Shown here one piece after another: positions 42,672 to 54,969 of a stretch of 64,000 nucleotides of DNA; position 1 is the stretch's first letter, and each line of letters starts with the position of its first letter. The position numbers and the translations under genes are program-made. This stretch comes from Peristeroidobacter soli (GTDB lineage Bacteria; Pseudomonadota; Gammaproteobacteria; Steroidobacterales; Steroidobacteraceae). The stretch covers positions 257,718 to 321,717 of the forward strand of contig NZ_RYEV01000004.1 of the NCBI RefSeq assembly GCF_004138485.1, read 5' to 3'. The notes beneath the pieces were generated by a model. The model did not search any database and was not told where the DNA came from. It worked only from the letters and a program-made list of their open reading frames with translations.

Positions 42672-45600
42672 CTACGCCGAGTGCACCAGTCTCAGCTGAG
42701 GATGCGTGCGCGTGATGCGGCTGAGCGACTCCACCGACTCCGGCATGGCGATATAGATGCCCTGCGCATACTCGACGCCGATGTCAGCCAGACACTTGAG
42801 CACTTCGGCGCTTTCCACGCGCTCGGCGACGGTCTTCAGGCCCATGGCCCGGCCGATCTGGGTGATGGCCTCGACCATGCTGCGATCGACGTGATCGGTG
42901 GTCACGTTTTGAATGAACGAGCCGTCGATCTTCAGGAAGTCCACCGGCAGGTTCTTCAGATACATGAACGATGACAGGCCGCTGCCGAAATCATCCAGCG
43001 AGAACAAGCAGCCGCGCGCGCGGAACTCGCGCATGAAATGCACGACGTTGGCGAGATTGGAGATCGCCGCCGTCTCCGTGATTTCGAAGCACACGGCCCC
43101 CGGACTCAGGTCGTAGGTCTGCAGCTCGTTGATCAGGAACTCCAGGAACCGATCGTCGTTCAGCGACGTGCCCGACAGGTTGATCGATAGCGTATAGCCA
43201 TGACGCGGATCGCCGTCCGCGCGATAGTGCGCGAGCGCGCCGAGCGCCTGGCTCACCACCCACCGGTCGATCATCGGCATCACGTTGTAGCGCTCCGCCG
43301 CCGGAATGAACTCCGCCGGCTGCACCAGTTCACCGTGCTCACCGCGCATGCGCAGTAGCAGCTCGTAGTGACCGCGCGTGTCGCGGGTCGCACCGATCGG
43401 CACGATGGGCTGGTAGTACAGCTCGAGCCGGTTCTCTTCGCAGGCGCGCGTCAGACGCGACACCCACTGCATCTCGCGATGGCGTTCCGGCGCCGAGCCG
43501 GATTGATACATGTGAACGCGATTGCGGCCCGAGTCCTTCGCCGCATAACAGGCCACGTCGGCCGCCGCCATGACGCTGCCAATATTCTCGCTCGCGCTAT
43601 TGATCTCGACGATGCCGACGCTGACGCCGACGTTCATCGCGCCGTCCTGCCATTCGAAGCGGTATTCGCGAATCGCCTGTCGCAGGTTGTCGGCAATCTT
43701 GGCCGCGCGATCGGCGGTGCAATCCTGGAGCAGCACGCCGAACTCATCGCCACCGAGGCGCGCGATCGTGTCGCTGGTCCGGATGCGAGTCTGCAACAGC
43801 CCGGTGATCTGCTTGAGCAGACGATCGCCCGCCTGGTGGCCGCAGGTGTCGTTCACGAGCTTGAATTGATCGAGGTCGAGGTACATCAACGCATGCGTCG
43901 TGCCCTCATCCGAGCGCGCCGTCAGCAGCGCTTCGTTGAGACGATTCTCGAACTCACGACGATTGATCAGACCGGTCAGCGCATCGTGGCTCGCCTGATA
44001 CGCGAGCGCCCGACGCAGCCGTCGCTCCTTGCTCACGTCATGGAACACCATGACCGCGCCGATGATCTTGCCGCTTCGATCGCGAATCGGCGCCGCCGAG
44101 TCCTGAATCGCGATTTCCTGGCCGCGACGATTCACGAGCACGGTGTGATCGGCGACCGCGATGACCTGCCCTTCACGCAGGGCGCGCGTGACCGGATCTT
44201 CCAGCGGCTCGCGCGTCGCCTCGTTCAGGATGTTGAAGACTTCCCGCAGCTTCCGGCCCTTCGCCTCGGCGCCGTCCCAGCCTGTGAGGTTCTCGGCCAC
44301 GGGATTCAATGTCTCGATGCAACCGTTGGCGTCGGTCGTGATGACGCCGTCGCCGATCGACTGCAGCGTCACCTGCGCCTTCTCCTTCTCCTCGAACACC
44401 GCCGTTTCGGCGCGCTTGCGTTCGCTGATGTCGGAGATCGTGCCTTCGTAGCCGATGAGCTGTCCGCTCCTGTCGCGCACGGCACGCGCGCTTTCGATGA
44501 CGGCGAGGATGGTTCCATCCACCCGGCGCATCTGAAACTCGGCATTGCGAACTTCGCCATCGCGCGCAATGGTCGCAATGATGGCCAGACGTTCGGCGGG
44601 ATCGTGATACATGCTGGCGGGCGGCAGCGCCATCAACTCCGTCGGCGAGGCATAACCGATCATGCGAGCCAGCGCGGGATTCACGGATAGGAAGCGGCCG
44701 TCGCTGGTCGAGCTGTACACCCCTTCCATGACGTTGTCGAACAGGCTTCGGTAGCGGGCCTCGCTGTCACGCAACGCGTTCTCGGCCAGACGTCGTTCGA
44801 TCGCGATGCCCGCGAGCTGCGTCATGCGCGACATCAACTCGAAGTCCCGCCGCAGCGGGCTCTTCGGCGTGCGGAAGTACAACGCCAGCGTGCCGAGAAT
44901 GCGGCCATCGGACGAATGAATCAGCGTGGACCAGCAGCTGCGCAATCCGGCGCCGAGCACCGCATCGCGCGTGTTCTCCCACAATGCATCGCGCGCGATG
45001 TCAGCGACGATGACCTGCCGCTGCAAATAGACGGCTGCCGCGCACGAGCCGTTGCGAGCAGCGATCGCGACGCCTTCCATCGCCTGTGAGTACACGGCCG
45101 GCAGTCGCGGCCCGGAGCACAGATTCAGATGTTTGCCTTCGTCATCGAGCATGCGGATCGCGCTCACGCAATCCGGCGCGACTCGCTCGACGACGTCCGT
45201 GATCGCCTGCAACGTGATACGCAGATCCACGTTCGCCGCGAGACGCTCGAACACGCGCCGCTCACCGGCTGCCAGGAGCTCGGCGCGCTTGCGCTCCGTG
45301 ATATCGGTGATGCTGCCGCGAATCAGGCGCTGACCATGCGACTGCAGCCGAACCCAGCGCACTTCACAAGGAATGTCGTTGCCGAAGCTGTCGCGGAACA
45401 TCCATTCGAGCACCGGCGCTTCTCCCGCCAGCGTGCGATCCAGCTGCGCCCGGTTCGCATGCGATGACAGCGCGCCGTCCGGCTGATGCGGCGGACACAG
45501 CGTATCGGGGCTGCTCTTCAGCAGTGCCTCGCGATCCATCTTGAAAAAGCGCACGGCGTTTTCGTTCACGTCGACCAGACGATTCTGATCGAGATCGACC

Positions 45601-46232
45601 ACCACGATGATCTCCGGCGCGTGCTCGACGAGCGTGCGATAGCGCGCCTCGCTGTCACGCAATGCCGCCTCCGCCATCTTGCGATCGGTGGTATCGCGCA
45701 GACACACGACGAACACTTCGCGGCGATTCATCTTGGTCTTGCTGACGGCGATCTCGGCGGAGAACTGCGTGCCGTCGCTGCGCTGGCCCGTCGTTTCATG
45801 AGGCGCGAGATCGACCTGCGTGTCATCGAGACGCGCGGCGAGCTGTTCCAGCGCGGCGGAGATGGTCTGTTTCGCCGTCATCTGCGGCAGCAGGAAGCTC
45901 AGCGGGCGGCCGATGGCATCGGATTCCGTCTGACCGAATACGCGTTGACCGGTGGCATTGATGGAGGCGATGTGACCGGCATCGTCGACGGTCATGATCA
46001 CGTCCTTGACGTGATCGAGCACGGCCTGCAACTGGCTCGCGGTGCTCTCGCGCAGCTCGCGCGTCAGCGCCGTGGCCTCATCGGACATCAGCTGCATGGA
46101 ACGCACGATGCCCCGGCGCTCCTCATCGGTCTTGCTATAGGCAGCCGTGATCGCGGCAAGCAACTTGCCGAGATCCAGCTCACCGTCCGAGCGCGTCGCT
46201 TCCCTGACTTGCTGTTCGAGCAGTCGATGCAT
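42672..46232 (-). CDS. Multi-PAS/GAF GGDEF-EAL cyclic-di-GMP protein
   Basis: A 1186-residue cytoplasmic signalling protein. Order by residues (approximate): helical start 1-64, PAS 65-195, PAS 196-325, GAF 326-485, PAS 490-620, PAS 620-750, GGDEF 750-915, EAL 920-1180. The cyclase site ARLGGDEFGVLL is intact and preceded by an RTSD I-site for product inhibition. The EAL region has ELL in place of EAL (HYELLLRM) but keeps INLSG, ITETAAI, DDFGSG, FLKIDGSF, ERVES and YAQG, so phosphodiesterase activity is probable. Cyclic-di-GMP turnover here could affect pilus and glycan genes nearby. Signals sensed by the PAS/GAF parts are unknown. Confidence 0.92.
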   Translation of the reverse strand: MHRLLEQQVREATRSDGELDLGKLLAAITAAYSKTDEERRGIVRSMQLMSDEATALTRELRESTASQLQAVLDHVKDVIMTVDDAGHIASINATGQRVFGQTESDAIGRPLSFLLPQMTAKQTISAALEQLAARLDDTQVDLAPHETTGQRSDGTQFSAEIAVSKTKMNRREVFVVCLRDTTDRKMAEAALRDSEARYRTLVEHAPEIIVVVDLDQNRLVDVNENAVRFFKMDREALLKSSPDTLCPPHQPDGALSSHANRAQLDRTLAGEAPVLEWMFRDSFGNDIPCEVRWVRLQSHGQRLIRGSITDITERKRAELLAAGERRVFERLAANVDLRITLQAITDVVERVAPDCVSAIRMLDDEGKHLNLCSGPRLPAVYSQAMEGVAIAARNGSCAAAVYLQRQVIVADIARDALWENTRDAVLGAGLRSCWSTLIHSSDGRILGTLALYFRTPKSPLRRDFELMSRMTQLAGIAIERRLAENALRDSEARYRSLFDNVMEGVYSSTSDGRFLSVNPALARMIGYASPTELMALPPASMYHDPAERLAIIATIARDGEVRNAEFQMRRVDGTILAVIESARAVRDRSGQLIGYEGTISDISERKRAETAVFEEKEKAQVTLQSIGDGVITTDANGCIETLNPVAENLTGWDGAEAKGRKLREVFNILNEATREPLEDPVTRALREGQVIAVADHTVLVNRRGQEIAIQDSAAPIRDRSGKIIGAVMVFHDVSKERRLRRALAYQASHDALTGLINRREFENRLNEALLTARSDEGTTHALMYLDLDQFKLVNDTCGHQAGDRLLKQITGLLQTRIRTSDTIARLGGDEFGVLLQDCTADRAAKIADNLRQAIREYRFEWQDGAMNVGVSVGIVEINSASENIGSVMAAADVACYAAKDSGRNRVHMYQSGSAPERHREMQWVSRLTRACEENRLELYYQPIVPIGATRDTRGHYELLLRMRGEHGELVQPAEFIPAAERYNVMPMIDRWVVSQALGALAHYRADGDPRHGYTLSINLSGTSLNDDRFLEFLINELQTYDLSPGAVCFEITETAAISNLANVVHFMREFRARGCLFSLDDFGSGLSSFMYLKNLPVDFLKIDGSFIQNVTTDHVDRSMVEAITQIGRAMGLKTVAERVESAEVLKCLADIGVEYAQGIYIAMPESVESLSRITRTHPQLRLVHSA

Positions 46233-48445: not shown

Positions 48446-48625
48446 CTACCCGTCTAACGCCCTCATTCCGTCGGCCCGTTGCATGCCCGGTCCCGGTGCA
48501 TGGGCCTCGTTCAGGGCCCGGGCACAGTCATCGCAACAGACTTCCACCGCTTTGCCGCCCACCGTCACCTCGATGCCGGGCCCTTCGATCCGGCAATCGC
48601 ACGCCGCACAGGTCCGCTCCGTCAT
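48446..48625 (-). CDS. Small Cys-rich protein, 59 residues
   Basis: A short frame on the minus strand encodes 59 residues starting MTERTCAACDCRIEGPG and containing GKAVEVCCDDCARALNEAH. The CxxC(x)C and CCxxC pairs separated by a small beta-rich stretch look like a treble-clef or metal-binding knuckle of the YHS/TRASH type. GAGGGCGAG precedes the ATG. It is divergent from the AlkB-like gene, and the palindrome at 48685-48712 lies between them, 59 bp from this ATG. Likely a metal or metal-transfer accessory protein; function not proven. The frame and cysteine pattern make a real gene likely. Confidence 0.7.
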   Translation of the reverse strand: MTERTCAACDCRIEGPGIEVTVGGKAVEVCCDDCARALNEAHAPGPGMQRADGMRALDG

Positions 48626-48684
48626 GGTCTCGCCCTCGTTTGCCCACCATGAGTGCAGTGTTGGCCTGGCGCCCGGGCGGCGCT

Positions 48685-48712
48685 GTCACAATCTTTAGCT
48701 AAAGATTTCGAC
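48685..48712. promoter_or_regulatory. 28-bp palindrome, copy 1 (AlkB / small Cys protein)
   Basis: GTCACAATC-TTTAGCTAAA-GATTTCGAC is a dyad whose inner AATCTTTAGCTAAAGATT is perfectly symmetric. It lies 37 bp before the AlkB-like TTG and 59 bp before the small Cys-protein ATG. A 24-base block, TTAGCTAAAGATTTCGACAG followed by CCCC, is identical to copy 2 in the same orientation relative to the downstream gene. It is probably an operator for the AraC-type regulator encoded at 49382-50212. Confidence 0.7.
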
Positions 48713-48749
48713 AGCCCCTGTCATGGATGAGTGTTGAGCTATCGGTGGG

Positions 48750-49406
48750 TTGTTCGCCGGGATTGAGCCATTGCGCCAGCAGGAAGATTTGTTTTCGACG
48801 CGCGGATCGCTGGCCATCGATCCGACTTTCGCCAGCGCGCGGCGGACTGCGCTGGATGCCACGTCGTGGGTCGAGCTCGTGCCGGGGTGGATGTCGGGCC
48901 CGGAATGTTTGTTCGACGCGCTGGCAACGGCGGTGCCCTGGAGTCAGCACTACCGCACCTTGTTCGAGCAAAGATTCCTGGAACCGCGGCTCACCGCTGA
49001 ATATCGCCGCCTGGACCGCGTGCCTCACGACATGCTGATTGCCGCCGCCACTGCCTTGTCGAGCCACTACGGCGTCGAGTACGACAGCCTGTGGCTGAAT
49101 CTGTACCGCAACGGCGAGGACAGCACCGGCTGGCATCGCGACCGGTTCTCGTGCCGGCGGGCCGAATGTATCGTGCCGGTGCTCACACTCGGTGCGACCC
49201 GTCGCTTCCAGCTCAAGCCGCGCGCCGGCGGCCCGTCGATCTCGTTCGCACCGAACTCGGGCGATCTGATCGTGATGGGCGGCCGCTGCCAGCAGGATTG
49301 GGTGCATGGCGTGCCCAAGCTGCCCGAAATACGCGAGCCGCGGATCAGCCTGAACTTCCAAAGCTCGATGCAGGCCGGGCGTCAGCGCAAATTGGCGGAG
49401 CGTTGA
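48750..49406 (+). CDS. AlkB-family 2OG-dependent dioxygenase
   Basis: A 218-residue AlkB-like enzyme. NLYRNGEDSTGWHRDR contains the N-x-Y and iron H-x-D; DWVHGVPK has the second iron His; RISLNFQ corresponds to the R-x-S-x-x-F 2-oxoglutarate site; SGDLIVMGGRCQQ precedes it. This fits the bacterial AlkB/ALKBH2-3 type, which removes alkyl groups from DNA or RNA bases by oxidation. The only in-frame start after the last upstream stop is TTG at 48750, so the true N-terminus is uncertain. Its 3' end overlaps the convergent AraC gene by 25 bp. The upstream palindrome links it to the DUF4331 operon. Confidence 0.88.
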   Translation: MFAGIEPLRQQEDLFSTRGSLAIDPTFASARRTALDATSWVELVPGWMSGPECLFDALATAVPWSQHYRTLFEQRFLEPRLTAEYRRLDRVPHDMLIAAATALSSHYGVEYDSLWLNLYRNGEDSTGWHRDRFSCRRAECIVPVLTLGATRRFQLKPRAGGPSISFAPNSGDLIVMGGRCQQDWVHGVPKLPEIREPRISLNFQSSMQAGRQRKLAER

Positions 49407-50212
49407 AACTGCGCCGGCGTGCGACCGTAGGCCTGTCGAAACGCCGCCGTGAAATGACTGTGACTGGAGAAGCCGAGATCCACGCCGAGCGTCGACAGAT
49501 CATCGTAGCTGCCAAGCAGATCCAGCGCGCGAGCCAGCCGCAGCCGCAGCTGATATCGATACAGCGGCACACCCTCCACCTGCGCGAACGCCTGCGTCAG
49601 ATACACCGGCGACACACCGACCTCCGCCGCGATCTCGGTCAGCGTCCAGCGACGCGAGAGCTCGGAAGAAAGAGTCAGCTTGGCCCGGTCGACCAGCTTT
49701 TGCCGACCGTAGGTTGCGCGGGTCGTCGGTGACGTGCGTTCGCCCAGCGCGCGACGGATCAGCGTCAACGTCAAGGTTTCCGCCTCCAGCAGCTCGATCG
49801 ATTTGTTGAGCAGGGTATGGCGCAGCAGCGCCACCAGGACCTGGGCTCTGGGTTCGATCCGCCAGCGCTGTTTGCTGAACGTCACGGCCGCGCCGTCATG
49901 CAGATGCTCGGTCGGCGCCAGCTCGCGCAACAGGTCTTCGCGGACCGAGATCGACAGACAGGCGTCGCCGCCCTGTACCGGATGACTGATCCGATAGCTC
50001 TCCATTTGATTGAAGCACAGGACCTGATTGGCTTCGGCGACCGCCTCGTTGCTGCCGAGGTGCCGCATGTAGACACCTCGATAAGGAAACACCAGATAGG
50101 TCGAGCTCGGACACTCCTCCGCGCTCTTGTGACGGCACTTGCCATCGCAGAGGACGTCGCGAATCGCGACGGTCTGCGTGTCCAGCAAGTCCTGAATGGC
50201 GAGCTCCGTCAT
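49382..50212 (-). CDS. AraC-family regulator with N-terminal cysteine cluster
   Basis: A 276-residue AraC/XylS protein. C-terminal HTH pair: LTEIAAEVGVSPVYLTQAF and LRLARALDLL, followed by LGFSSHSHFTAAFRQAYGRTP. The N-terminal domain has Cys at about 22, 26, 34, 66 and 85 (LCDGKC then CPSS; VLCFNQ; DACLS), including a CxxxC spaced like the methyl-acceptor site of Ada, though the rest differs from Ada. It is the third gene of a rightmost-to-left operon with DUF4331 and DUF4198, overlapping the latter by 4 bp. It probably acts on the two palindromes in this locus. Inducer unknown; metal, redox or alkylation sensing are possible. Confidence 0.87.
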   Translation of the reverse strand: MTELAIQDLLDTQTVAIRDVLCDGKCRHKSAEECPSSTYLVFPYRGVYMRHLGSNEAVAEANQVLCFNQMESYRISHPVQGGDACLSISVREDLLRELAPTEHLHDGAAVTFSKQRWRIEPRAQVLVALLRHTLLNKSIELLEAETLTLTLIRRALGERTSPTTRATYGRQKLVDRAKLTLSSELSRRWTLTEIAAEVGVSPVYLTQAFAQVEGVPLYRYQLRLRLARALDLLGSYDDLSTLGVDLGFSSHSHFTAAFRQAYGRTPAQFQRSANLR

Positions 50213-51063
50213 GGAAAGCCGAAAGTCAGACTGGAGAAGGTCGTGTCGAAGTCTACCTCGGCCGGCGCCGGGACGGGCTTGCTCCAGACCACGTTCAACA
50301 ACCAGGTCCCGTACGGTGTCAGCGGAAAACTCGCCCGGCCCGACGCGTCCGTCCGACGCGCCTCGACCGGTGCATCGTCATGCTCCAGTTGCGTGAGCTT
50401 CACGAGCGCGCCTGCGAGCGGCTGCCCCTCGAAATACACGCGCACCGGCAAGTCCCCTGCGCTCGCTGAGTAAGGACTGCGTTCCGGCACGATCTCCAGC
50501 GTCAGTCCCAGCGGCGTCGTGACATGTGCCTGAGATCGACGATCAACCGCTCCGTGCTGCACGATGGCCTTCGAGACGCGGCGATAACTCTCCGCCGTAT
50601 CCGCCGACATCTTTCCAGCGCGCTCACGATAGTCGAGCGCCGGCGTGAGCCCTTCATCGCGAGCATAATCATTGAACCGCTGTGCCGGTAACGCGCTGCG
50701 GCCGCCATTGTCCGTTTCCAGCACGACGACATACGTACCCGGCGCATCGAACTGCAGACGACCGTCGTCGTTCGCACCGCGCAGATGCAGATCGGCACGC
50801 ACGTCGTGCGATGTTCCATCCGGCGCGACAGTAACGAAGCGCGAGATCCGGTTGGAGCGGATCTGCGATCGCTGTCGCTGCGCGCCGTGCCCGACCTGTA
50901 ACGTGATCGGAATCGACGCGTCCGGTGGCGACCAGTACTGCAGTGGCTGGATCCAGAAGTCATGCGCGCTCGCACCGGACGTGACGAAGATCCCAGCCAG
51001 CAGGATTGCGCCCCACATGCAGCGACGCGCGTCATTCCCGCTCAATGGATGACGGCACTTCAT
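50209..51063 (-). CDS. Exported DUF4198-type protein
   Basis: A 284-residue periplasmic protein. The signal peptide (WGAILLAGIFVTSGASA) is cleaved before HDFWIQPLQYW, the AHDFW start that marks DUF4198 proteins, some of which are annotated with metal (cobalt or nickel) transport loci. The body is made of beta-sandwich domains, ending in GRASFPLTPYGTWLLNVVWSKP. It overlaps both neighbours by 4 bp (ATGA), so DUF4331, this gene and AraC form one unit. A metal-binding or transport-accessory role is suggested by the family, not shown here. Confidence 0.82.
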   Translation of the reverse strand: MKCRHPLSGNDARRCMWGAILLAGIFVTSGASAHDFWIQPLQYWSPPDASIPITLQVGHGAQRQRSQIRSNRISRFVTVAPDGTSHDVRADLHLRGANDDGRLQFDAPGTYVVVLETDNGGRSALPAQRFNDYARDEGLTPALDYRERAGKMSADTAESYRRVSKAIVQHGAVDRRSQAHVTTPLGLTLEIVPERSPYSASAGDLPVRVYFEGQPLAGALVKLTQLEHDDAPVEARRTDASGRASFPLTPYGTWLLNVVWSKPVPAPAEVDFDTTFSSLTFGFP

Positions 51064-52244
51064 GGTGCCGCCAGGAATGGAAATTCCGTGATCGAATGTT
51101 CGTGGTCGTCGCGGTCGACACCGTCATCGATGCCGGTCGCCTGCCCCATCGACAACACCGAGCGATAGACATCGATGGCATCGTCATTCGGCGTCCTGCC
51201 GCCGCAATACATCATCATCGCGTCCTGACCGGCCAGGGCCGCGAACTCGACCGAGAAGAATTCGCCGCAGATCGTCGATTCGCTGTTGACCCAGAGCCGG
51301 TCGTCGGCAAGCACGGTGGCGAGCGCTCGATAGCGTGCCGGCGAGGCCGTCTTCATATCGGCCAGCAGCTGATTGCCGCACTTGCCATCGAAGCCATCGT
51401 AGATCCCCAATGTTCGCTCCATCTCGGCGATGAACTCAGCGCCAGTCGCCGGCGTCGCGCCGTTGTAACGCTCTTTCAGCCGATCGCTCGTTGCTTCGTC
51501 CGAGAACGATCCCAGGAGCGCATTGCCGGTGAGCGGGCGGCCCATGCGATCTATTTGTTTGTTTGCATTCGCCGTCGTTGCCCACACCGCGAGCATCGTG
51601 CCGCCGCGATCGACGACATCCAGATCCACCGAAACCACCAGCGACGCCGGCGTCCAGCCCACGAGGAAGTTCTTCGCCGGACCACCGCCCGTGTGACGCC
51701 ACGTGTCGAGAATCGACCGGGCGGTTGCTTCGCTGAACATCGGACAGCCCGCGACATCGTTCTTTGCGCTGCCCATCATCGCGTCCGCGGCCACGGCATA
51801 TGCCTCTCGCGTGCCCTTCACGTTGTTGTAGAACGGATCGTCACGCAGCCCCGCGAACACGCGCAGGTGCTTGTTCCGACCCTCCAGACCCTTGGAGTCG
51901 CTCGCATCGCCGCTCGCGACGTCGGCATTACCCACCTTACAAAAGACGTTGTGAGCCGTCGCAATCCGACAGACGATGTCCGTCGTTGCATTGGTTTGTC
52001 CGAACCGTCTGCCGCTATCGATGTGGAACACGTACTCGAGCTGTTCCGAGAACGTGTGCCCCACGATCGTCATGACCAGGTTGAGCCGGCGCGCGTCGTG
52101 CGAAGTCCAGGCAAATACATCGCCGATATCGGCGCGCGGGTCGGCGATCACGCTGGGTGTGTCGAGATGATCGGCTGCAAACAAGGGACTGGCGGCCAGC
52201 ATCGCGGCCCCAACCAATGCGCGATTCCTGATTTGCTGTGTCAT
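51060..52244 (-). CDS. Exported DUF4331 protein
   Basis: A 394-residue secreted protein: signal peptide ALVGAAMLAASPLFA, then AADHLDTPSVIADPRADIGDVFAWTS, the DUF4331 signature (in parts HLDTP and DIGDVFAW). The rest is a large beta-rich region with several cysteines and FLVGWTPASLVVSVDL. DUF4331 proteins have no assigned function and often sit in stress-induced, ECF-sigma or peroxide-linked operons. It is the first gene of the operon with DUF4198 and AraC, and the palindrome copy 2 ends 58 bp upstream of its ATG. The presence of two exported partners suggests an envelope process. Confidence 0.85.
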   Translation of the reverse strand: MTQQIRNRALVGAAMLAASPLFAADHLDTPSVIADPRADIGDVFAWTSHDARRLNLVMTIVGHTFSEQLEYVFHIDSGRRFGQTNATTDIVCRIATAHNVFCKVGNADVASGDASDSKGLEGRNKHLRVFAGLRDDPFYNNVKGTREAYAVAADAMMGSAKNDVAGCPMFSEATARSILDTWRHTGGGPAKNFLVGWTPASLVVSVDLDVVDRGGTMLAVWATTANANKQIDRMGRPLTGNALLGSFSDEATSDRLKERYNGATPATGAEFIAEMERTLGIYDGFDGKCGNQLLADMKTASPARYRALATVLADDRLWVNSESTICGEFFSVEFAALAGQDAMMMYCGGRTPNDDAIDVYRSVLSMGQATGIDDGVDRDDHEHSITEFPFLAAP

Positions 52245-52302
52245 GCGTTCCCTCCATCGCCAAAGATGGACCAGACGATAGACACGGAGCGCCGACGGGG
52301 CT

Positions 52303-52331
52303 GTCGAAATCTTTAGCTAAGTGATTTCGAC
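52303..52331. promoter_or_regulatory. 29-bp palindrome, copy 2 (DUF4331 operon)
   Basis: GTCGAAATC-TTTAGCTAAGT-GATTTCGAC has perfect 9-base outer arms and the TTTAGCTAA core, with one extra base compared with copy 1. It ends 58 bp before the DUF4331 ATG. Distance and sequence match copy 1 relative to the small Cys protein, which argues for one regulator acting on three transcription units. Confidence 0.7.
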
Positions 52332-52377
52332 GGGAGGGTAACGGACGCGGCTGGACCGCGTCCGTCGAGGAGCGGAC

Positions 52378-53028: not shown

Positions 53029-54789
53029 TCAGAGTTCTTGAATGGTGATGTTCATGCAGCGCGGAGTCGTCACCAACGGATTGGTCGTGTCCGGATCGAT
53101 CGTCTCGTAGGCGACCACCTCGATCACGTAAGTCCCCGCGGCGAGCAGTTGTTGCGAGATCGTCTCCTGACCTGAGACCTCGCTTCTGCCACTCGCCACA
53201 ATCGTGCCGCGTAGATACACCTCGATGTCGGGATCGACAGCGGCGCCGGAACCGGCAACGGCTCCCGACGCCGCGCCGGTCGCCTGAATGTTCACCAGTC
53301 CACTGCTCGCCTTGACGTACCGCAGGAAGCGGCGGTTGCCGAGCTTGTTGCCGGCGCGCGAGCCGTTGGTGCTGCAAATGCCGGAGACGATCACGCCCGG
53401 AGTGATATCCGTGTACACGCTGGTGAAGCCGATGTCGTTGCCGCTATTTGTCTCATTCGCGCCGAACTCGCCGGTGCCGTTGATATTCTCCAGCAGCAAC
53501 AGGTTCCGAATATCGCCCGACGCGCTGGCATTGTTGGTGCGCAGTGCATTGGCAAACGAATAAATGCTGGTCAGCGCCGGCGTGCTCACTTCCTGGTTCG
53601 TCATGGCATTGAAAATGGGCGTGAATCCGAGCGCCACGTTGTCGCCCGATTCATTCGTGCCATCGAACACGTCCCAAAGGAACTTGCCGACCGAGCCTTC
53701 CGAGTACCATCCCGTCGCGCCGCCGGTATCTTCGCCGGTTTCCAGATTGAAACCGTGGTCCCGAGTGATGCCGGCGTAAGAATCGCGATACACCGGATCG
53801 TTCAGCGCCATCGCGCCGAACGCGTTGCCCCAGCCCTCGCCGAACGCGACACGCAGGTCGAGAAGATCGCCTGCGTTGTGCTCGCCGCCGATGGAATCGG
53901 AGCGGCTGAAACGGTCCTCGAAATAATGTCCGAATTCGTGCGCGATCACGTGCTGATCGAACTCGTCGGTATCGGCCAGGCCGCTGTCGAAGGCGCCGAG
54001 AATGTAAATGCCGTCGGGCAGCACCGCCGACGGGCTGCACTGATCGGTCGTGGAGCGAGTCTCGTCTCTGAAATAGAACGAGGTACTGATGGCGCCGTCA
54101 TCGGGGCAGATGATCGGGTCGCCATTCCCATCGACCACGTTGCGGTTGGTGGGATTCCAGTACAGGTTCAGATCTGGAAACTGCTGATTCGGCGCAGCGC
54201 CGCGGATGAGTTCCTTGGTTCGATACACCGTATCGAGAATCGCGAACGGCGCCGCTGCGCGCGTGCCGGTGTAGCTGGTGGTGCCCCAACCCGATGTCGC
54301 ACGCAGATTCCGGGTCACCGCAGCGGTCCCGCTGTTGAAGGTGCTGCCATCCAGCGCATAGAGCGCAGCGGAGTCGCGGTTGTCGCGAACGGCGAAGTTC
54401 CAGATCGGCGCAGCACCGGTCTTTTGCATCTGGGCGCGCGCGCGAATGAACATGTTTGTATTCGCGTTGACGGTCAGCGTGTAGTCGCCATTGGCGTCGG
54501 TCGTCGTCGACGCGAGCACCGTCGAGCCGGACATCGCTTGCACCACCACTTCGCGAGCCGGCGATTCGACCGGCGTCGTATTCAATCCCTGACCGAGCGT
54601 AGGCTGGAACGCCAGCCGGTCGAAGGTGATCCTGCCGCTGACCGTGACGGTCGCACCCGTGGGCGGAGGATTGGGATTGCCGCCGTTACCGCCGCCCACC
54701 GACCCGCCACCGCCGCCGCAGGCGGCCAGCACGGTGAACCCGGCCAGGGTGGTGAACAACCGGGCGAGACGGGAGAATTCCTGCGGCAT
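53029..54789 (-). CDS. Secreted HEFGH zinc metalloprotease-like lipoprotein
   Basis: A 586-residue lipoprotein with lipobox VLAAC (Cys about 23) and a Gly-rich linker. A transthyretin/CNA-like beta domain follows (TVTVSGRITFDRLAF and TTTDANGDYTLTVNAN). The central region has the zinc site HVIAHEFGHYFEDRFSRSD (about residues 285-303) with HExxH-type His ligands and a downstream Glu in FGEGWGNAFGAM. The C-terminal 90 residues resemble a PPC-like domain (IDPDTTNPLV). The start at 54789 is chosen for the lipobox. It is probably a surface protease; target unknown. The related GluZincin families differ in detail, so the exact family is uncertain. Confidence 0.8.
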   Translation of the reverse strand: MPQEFSRLARLFTTLAGFTVLAACGGGGGSVGGGNGGNPNPPPTGATVTVSGRITFDRLAFQPTLGQGLNTTPVESPAREVVVQAMSGSTVLASTTTDANGDYTLTVNANTNMFIRARAQMQKTGAAPIWNFAVRDNRDSAALYALDGSTFNSGTAAVTRNLRATSGWGTTSYTGTRAAAPFAILDTVYRTKELIRGAAPNQQFPDLNLYWNPTNRNVVDGNGDPIICPDDGAISTSFYFRDETRSTTDQCSPSAVLPDGIYILGAFDSGLADTDEFDQHVIAHEFGHYFEDRFSRSDSIGGEHNAGDLLDLRVAFGEGWGNAFGAMALNDPVYRDSYAGITRDHGFNLETGEDTGGATGWYSEGSVGKFLWDVFDGTNESGDNVALGFTPIFNAMTNQEVSTPALTSIYSFANALRTNNASASGDIRNLLLLENINGTGEFGANETNSGNDIGFTSVYTDITPGVIVSGICSTNGSRAGNKLGNRRFLRYVKASSGLVNIQATGAASGAVAGSGAAVDPDIEVYLRGTIVASGRSEVSGQETISQQLLAAGTYVIEVVAYETIDPDTTNPLVTTPRCMNITIQEL

Positions 54790-54969
54790 TTGTTCGGTAC
54801 TCGAGCGCCCCTTGAGGGGGCGGATATTTGCACTGCTGTGAACGATTCGGCGCCGACCTGTCAGCGCGGGGACGCTATCACAGCGTCCGAACAGCAAAAA
54901 GTCGATGCGTTCGCATTCCCGATTGACGCAACGATGCATCTGTGACGGGCAGCGACATTCAGCAGGCGT

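Follow-up and report, generated by a model that had tools for sequence, protein, structure and literature searches.

An AraC-family regulator gene and an asymmetric 18-bp DNA motif, GCTAAAGATTTCGACAGC, lie together in a 64,000-nucleotide stretch of the Peristeroidobacter soli genome (contig NZ_RYEV01000004.1; the whole stretch is called the window below), and we find that this motif accompanies homologues of the regulator gene in most of the loci compared. Its three copies in the window face the genes of an AlkB-family dioxygenase, a small cysteine-rich protein (Cys protein) and a DUF4331 protein, and the motif stands upstream of the Cys protein gene in dozens of loci. Comparison of these loci makes it very probable that the AraC protein recognizes the motif, and site positions indicate that it probably activates transcription, with sites that face the target and end at or close to -35. 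On balance, we favor the view that the regulator runs a regulon in which it is itself encoded and which defends the cell against a reactive, probably alkylating, electrophile.

Co-occurrence of the motif with the AraC-family gene

We assembled 60 loci with the AraC gene, 57 of them through protein similarity or as the window itself and three (L152, L240, and L241) through the motif, so that these three are not independent of it. The former group comprises 51 loci from a scan of a named collection (L037-L086 and L093; 51 of the 73 returned), which were gathered by similarity to the AraC protein alone, three from an AraC search of the family, two from an AraC search of mycobacteria, and the window. 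The motif is present in 53 of the 60 loci at up to three mismatches and in 48 at up to two, and 71 sites were found, whereas 20 shuffled motifs average 0.25 sites in the same 924 kb. Nearly all sites (69/71) precede a gene of the set by no more than 300 bp, and 57/71 stand before families of the window; the set used for scoring the next gene includes some families first spotted behind a motif. Most targets are the Cys protein (41 sites), DUF4331 (12), a putatively "TAT-type" hydrolase (6), and AraC itself (3), while single sites precede genes for AlkB, PEP mutase, a saccharopine-dehydrogenase-like (SDH-like) protein, a hydrolase, a nitroreductase, a cupin, and a presumably isochorismatase-like protein with below-cut-off profile matches only.

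The association extends to whole genomes. A match at up to two mismatches is present in 48 of 50 genomes with the AraC gene (L070 was omitted from this search), and in 46 of them such a site lies inside the AraC locus itself. The exact sequence CTAAAGATTYCGACAGC occurs at 29 places in these genomes, 28 in AraC loci and one elsewhere. In an even sample of 369 genomes of the class, the strict motif was found only in that of the window (G000), a test of one strict pattern in which presence of the AraC gene in the other 368 genomes was not checked. Sites are found in 6/14 genomes of the genus, and the motif matches in the two new ones, G483 and G484, mark further AraC-Cys loci (in G484 also DUF4331-DUF4198), as predicted. 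Because the two co-occur in so many loci and the strict motif is so rare in the class, we regard the AraC protein as very probably the activator acting at the motif, and the earlier proposal of a single regulon with its regulator inside is borne out by these data and by the recurrence of the same families. Those families stand behind the motif not only in Alpha- and Gammaproteobacteria but also in an acidobacterium and a mycobacterium. The regulator gene is accessory: copies of at least 47% identity occur in four of 60 family genomes (its own included) and three of 118 mycobacterial genomes. The nearest named relatives, Peristeroidobacter agariperforans (L037) and Steroidobacter agaridevorans (L038), have regulators that are 89% identical.

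As an observation in its own right, the locus of Mycobacterium interjectum (L083, 2599-12525) holds five motif copies at up to three mismatches within 10 kb. Four of them face or lead towards hydrolase, cupin, isochorismatase-like, and nitroreductase genes, and no target was assigned to the exact copy at 2599.

Motif copies and genes of the window

The relevant features of the window are the following:

48446-48625, minus strand: gene of the TRASH-like Cys protein, 59 residues, with a homologue in 41/60 loci
48682-48699, minus strand: predicted regulator site GCTAAAGATTGTGACAGC facing the Cys gene, 2 mismatches, 56 bp before the ATG
48695-48718, minus strand: 24-base block GGGGCTGTCGAAATCTTTAGCTAA, copy in element 1, identical to the DUF4331-promoter copy
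48698-48715, plus strand: predicted regulator site GCTAAAGATTTCGACAGC facing AlkB, 0 mismatches
48750-49406, plus strand: AlkB-family 2OG-Fe(II) dioxygenase (PF13532, 1.4e-14, 55.2 bits versus a cut-off of 31.2)
49382-50212, minus strand: AraC-family regulator, 276 residues (PF12833, 4.3e-18)
50209-51063, minus strand: DUF4198 protein (PF10670, 7.8e-33), with a 4-base overlap with each neighbor
51060-52244, minus strand: DUF4331 protein (PF14224, 4.2e-16), with an N-terminal signal-like stretch by eye
52297-52320, plus strand: 24-base block GGGGCTGTCGAAATCTTTAGCTAA, copy in element 2, identical to the element 1 copy
52300-52317, minus strand: predicted regulator site GCTAAAGATTTCGACAGC facing DUF4331, 0 mismatches, ending 55 bp before the ATG
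52316-52333, plus strand: imperfect inverted second copy with a one-base insertion, giving element 2 its palindromic look

The sequence-only reading had described two palindromic elements, element 1 between the Cys and AlkB genes and element 2 before DUF4331, and both lie where it placed them and share the identical 24-base block. The sequence TTTAGCTAA occurs three times in the 9.37-Mb genome, always inside these elements (on both strands of element 1 and one strand of element 2), versus 44 occurrences of a reversed control pattern, and a 19-mer from the 24-base block finds only the same three places genome-wide at up to three mismatches (control: 2). The palindrome as such is not the conserved unit, however, which is the asymmetric 18-bp motif. 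Element 1 consists of two overlapping, divergent motif copies, and its palindrome arises from the 2 bases that the AlkB-facing and Cys-facing sites have in common. The inverted second copy of element 2 is also seen in L037 and L038, as is the identical Cys-facing sequence, and a full inverted-repeat scan of the other loci found no pair comparable to element 2; only Steroidobacter-group elements showed an inverted left arm approaching the full palindrome. The distances previously put at 59 and 58 bp for two of the start codons amount, when counted from the motif, to 55 bp (DUF4331) and 56 bp (Cys protein). For AlkB, the distance is 55 bp if translation starts at TTG 48771 and 34 bp if it starts at TTG 48750, and the former start, with GGGA upstream, is more likely.

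Across loci the motif faces its target at a near-constant distance, mostly 50-80 bp before the start codon. In 54 sites with up to two mismatches, positions 1-5 (CTAAA), 12, 13, 15, and 17 (G, A, A, and C) are invariant, and this is partly by construction since these sites were picked on mismatches and a larger set of 70 with CTAA in place. Alignment of the 70 sites shows a weak -10-like stretch (TCTAT, TCTCCTATG) about 35-43 bases past the motif start, seen as TCTATC downstream of the DUF4331-facing site, and little information in the flanks, including the palindrome's left half. This bears on the possibility that the elements serve a different regulator as its palindromic operator, for instance KorA of IncP plasmids; the KorA operator is given as GTTTAGCTAAAC in PMC2680271, and its core TTTAGCTAAA is also contained in element 1. 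We reject such an operator as extremely improbable because the left arm is not conserved; moreover, the motif tracks the AraC gene across phyla and TTTAGCTAA is absent from the rest of the genome. An origin of the elements as mobile elements or repeats, judged without a direct transposon-end test, is not favored because the motif recurs oriented and gene-proximal in unrelated loci. Four further sites in the window's genome, with three mismatches each, correspond to background (control: 3). Two of these were examined: one (L154) has no gene of the set downstream, and the other (L155) directly follows a stretch with weak similarity to the hydrolase (best E 8e-6), which was taken as chance.

The matches of the AlkB-like (PF13532), DUF4198, DUF4331, and AraC helix-turn-helix (HTH) domains all exceed their Pfam cut-offs. 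A structural model of the DUF4331 protein is moderate, with a predicted local distance difference test score (pLDDT) of 71; Foldseek gave no match for it at E 0.001 or better, and solved structures searched with an alignment of DUF4331 reached only E 0.14. Elsewhere in the window, a 636-residue protein (53029-54939, minus strand) has a weak, below-cut-off match to Peptidase_M36, and a 1186-residue open frame (42672-46232, minus strand) looks by eye like a PAS/GAF-GGDEF-EAL signaling protein.

The regulator, its partner genes and possible signals

The HTH half of the regulator matches PF12833 with 65.8 bits (cut-off 33.6) and PF00165 with 50.1 bits (cut-off 26.6), and its N-terminus carries a cluster of the form C22-x3-C26-x-H28-x5-C34, including the CxxxC at residues 22 and 26 that had been noticed from the sequence. 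In an alignment of 58 regulators including that of the window (two of the 60 loci, with no regulator of at least 240 residues, were dropped), C22 is conserved in 57, C26 in 52, H28 in 51, and C34 in 44. The AlphaFold model (pLDDT 92) combines a cupin-like N-terminal half with the AraC HTH half, and its structure matches are led by ToxT, CsvR, and Rns at low whole-length template-modeling scores of about 0.35. C22 closes the second strand of this model while C26, H28, and C34 lie in the following loop, a modeled placement that suits a Cys- or metal-based switch. No methyltransferase (PF01035-type) domain was found at E 0.1, and the resemblance to Ada is as slight as previously judged, being limited to the Cys-rich N-terminus.

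None of the 25 NCBIfam models shown for the regulator exceeds its own cut-off. If Cys22 sensed an oxidant such as hypochlorite or a quinone, in the way that RclR responds to hypochlorite, this would be in line with an N-terminal Cys in an AraC protein and with the nitroreductase, cupin, and isochorismatase-like targets of L083. However, the RclR model matches through the HTH alone (19.1 bits versus a cut-off of 400), none of the assigned targets encodes a catalase, peroxiredoxin, or thioredoxin, and the AlkB and Ogt neighbors discussed below would be left unexplained, so that we consider an oxidant signal quite unlikely.

The small Cys protein is the most constant partner of the regulator, with the consensus TCAACDxxLDxNxIxVxIGGxxVEVCCEECA. 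Homologues from the 41 loci share the pattern C-x2-C ... CC-x2-C, from which L093 deviates after CCE. Against the TRASH model PF24273 the protein scores 19.6 bits, below the curated cut-off of 27, and we therefore call it only "TRASH-like". This match and the Cys/His cluster of the regulator could point to metal homeostasis, with both proteins binding metal and DUF4198 and DUF4331 serving periplasmic metal supply; AlkB requires iron, and the term DUF4198 occurs in Caulobacter literature on the Zur and iron regulons. Yet C22 stays in some homologues in which C26, H28, and C34 are lost, no metal role is obvious for the commonest enzyme partners (hydrolase, PEP mutase, and SDH-like), and no metal transporter family appears among the assigned motif targets, which leaves metal homeostasis an unlikely function.

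An alpha/beta hydrolase gene comes next after the Cys gene in many gamma- and alphaproteobacterial loci, and the two form one 328-residue frame in Phyllobacterium sp. YR531 (L039:8921-9907); this fusion suggests that the Cys protein and the dehalogenase-like hydrolase may act together. The nearest solved relatives of the hydrolase are haloalkane dehalogenases. Its Asp nucleophile D103 is kept in 21/21 sequences, whereas the catalytic-base His is missing at the aligned position in 16/16 and replaced by Ile/Leu, with Arg/Lys at the base position by a one-residue shift, a His three residues on in L054, and H35 of an HG motif as the only invariant His. With the Asp kept but the base His gone, the protein may not be an ordinary hydrolase. 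Further partners are PEP-mutase-like (PF13714) and saccharopine-dehydrogenase-like (PF03435) proteins. DUF4331-DUF4198 is motif-led in cis and, in G430 (L150), also away from the AraC gene, and in a Rhizobium genome (G433, L149) the motif leads a gene that we take by eye to be VOC-like.

A set of hydrolase, PEP-mutase-like lyase, saccharopine-dehydrogenase-like protein, and nitroreductase could also make a pathway. The regulon would then be catabolic and dedicated to a specific organic compound that the cupin binds reversibly, with AlkB as a passenger or recruited oxygenase. AraC-type cupins usually bind small molecules, and the matches of the regulator model include ToxT, BgaR, and RhaR. However, the 69 assigned motif targets include no transporter or ring-cleavage gene, and a near-invariant Cys22 with a Cys/His cluster, a Cys microprotein, and DNA-repair neighbors would be unusual for a catabolic operon; we rate this explanation as unlikely.

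Alkylation repair, the proposed response and known systems

The window AlkB has ALKBH3 and ALKBH2 as nearest solved structures, its H-x-D and distal His align with those of ALKBH3, and it faces an exact motif copy. Dealkylation as the center of the regulon is not supported: an AlkB-like gene is present in 5/60 AraC loci only, and we reject AlkB as a core member; it is a recurrent but minority member. Two of these five loci have the gene 7-8 kb from AraC (L225, 47% identical; L051, 31%). G044, a genome from the same genus, has a motif-led operon DUF4331-DUF4198-AlkB, whose AlkB is 65% identical and overlaps DUF4198; the AraC gene lies 3 kb away. A Mycobacterium locus (L084) has the order AraC-PEP mutase-AlkB with a 43% identical AlkB (PF13532), and the mycobacterial genome G595 has a 47% identical AlkB 7.5 kb from AraC. 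Among 40 AlkB-like matches in 54 genomes, the closest three (100, 65, and 46% identical) all lie within 6 kb of AraC. The remaining 37 are at most 37% identical, and the motif was found in none of the 27 of these searched with about 1.5 kb per side.

One relative illustrates the genomic slot of the window genes. In G478 (L227:8940-9723), AlkB stands alone between an ORF6 homologue and TypA, and the same ORF6-TypA slot holds DUF4331-DUF4198-AraC-AlkB-Cys in the window. A weak GTAAAGATACGCAGC stretch in the G478 gap is perhaps a remnant.

A second repair family neighbors the regulator in other loci. An Ogt/MGMT gene (PF01035) comes directly after AraC in L083, and Ogt together with PF09859 lies directly before AraC in L041; a rough estimate expects 0.2 Ogt genes within 3 kb of AraC in about 54 loci, and two are seen. 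The sole exact motif outside AraC loci, in Dyella sp. OK004, adjoins an Ogt gene as well. There, on a contig other than that of AraC (L151, 4233-4850), an exact and a 3-mismatch copy flank Ogt/MGMT.

Several findings weigh against a defense regulon under this motif, or at least against its link to repair. Regarding the motif, it is missing within three mismatches from 7/60 AraC loci: L064 and L065 have versions with 4 mismatches, as do L225 and L226, there in front of PEP mutase, and L070, L084, and L085 yielded none. At up to two mismatches the 50 genomes contain 83 places, of which no more than 57 fall in AraC loci, and the reversed pattern gives 28. Separation of AlkB and motif among relatives, which the sequence-only reading had singled out as telling against their connection, is seen in part: at the loci of L037 and L038 the motif is present but this AlkB is missing, and the AlkB of G478 (77% identical, beside TypA) has neither the motif nor a neighboring AraC gene. 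The Ogt genes of L041 and L083 have no motif of their own, and both copies in L151 point outward, away from Ogt. Moreover, PF01035 genes occur in 54/54 genomes at about 3-4 per genome, and some adjacency to AraC is thus expected by chance. In most AraC loci no DNA-repair gene was found with the queries used, and we know of no role for DUF4331 or DUF4198.

In the regulon as we read it, one site in the window would drive DUF4331-DUF4198-araC, and the regulator would thereby induce itself; the back-to-back pair of sites would drive the Cys protein and AlkB. We tentatively suggest that a reactive electrophile serves as the signal, most likely one that alkylates, and that it would be sensed at the near-invariant Cys22 together with C26, H28, and C34. 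The hydrolase, PEP-mutase-like lyase, and reductases might remove the compound or its products, the Cys protein might shield thiols or metals, DUF4331 and DUF4198 might work in the envelope, and AlkB or Ogt would repair alkylated DNA in species that acquired either. A more specific version, which we offer as improbable speculation, is a second defense independent of Ada in which alkylated Cys22 switches AraC on and the His-less hydrolase traps alkyl groups covalently, as the engineered HaloTag does. The hydrolase would then be a natural suicide scavenger with the Cys microprotein as its partner, and AlkB or Ogt would repair what leaks through.

Sequence alone thus yields predictions for a regulator, for the exact DNA site that it uses, and for its targets, with a predicted reach across Steroidobacter, Rhizobium, Caulobacter, Lysobacter, an acidobacterium, and a mycobacterium. 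It joins several orphan families (DUF4331, DUF4198, the TRASH-like microprotein, and a His-less dehalogenase relative) in one testable response. Should the signal be an alkylating electrophile, this would be a detoxification-plus-repair system apart from Ada and Cada2. In the open-access literature, we found no mention of DUF4331, alone or with AraC; the 18-base motif was not found among the matches listed, and the titles and abstract starts among these contain no description of such a regulon.

Compared with Ada of E. coli and Cada2 of Caulobacter (PMC10957082), the regulator is likewise an HTH factor with a possibly reactive Cys and is probably autoregulated, and direct-repair genes (AlkB and Ogt-type) are among or beside the targets. 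AlkB stands under the shared motif in the window and in G044, and Ogt is only adjacent. We reject an identity with Ada or Cada2 on the basis of that comparison: no methyltransferase domain was found in the regulator, which has a cupin-AraC architecture, its site GCTAAAGATTTCGACAGC differs from the A/B-box or B/X-box (GCAA, CGG), and most targets are not DNA repair genes. The window oxygenase resembles ALKBH3, ALKBH2, and bacterial AlkB in its PF13532 domain with predicted H-x-D and distal His ligand positions, and it is closer to AraC-linked AlkBs than to other AlkB-like genes of these genomes. With haloalkane dehalogenases (DhaA etc.) the partner hydrolase shares the alpha/beta-hydrolase family and the Asp at the nucleophile position, but it lacks the base His and the Trp after the Asp and scores below the NCBIfam cut-offs. 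Finally, the regulator resembles AraC/XylS activators (AraC, MarA/SoxS/Rob, ToxT, and RclR) in its C-terminal HTH, its cupin-like N-terminal half, and a predicted asymmetric site near -35, whereas it is set apart by the C-x3-C-x-H-x5-C cluster and by its own motif and gene set. We rate the system as a new AraC regulon, distinguished by its motif and its set of genes, and not as a new type of regulator.

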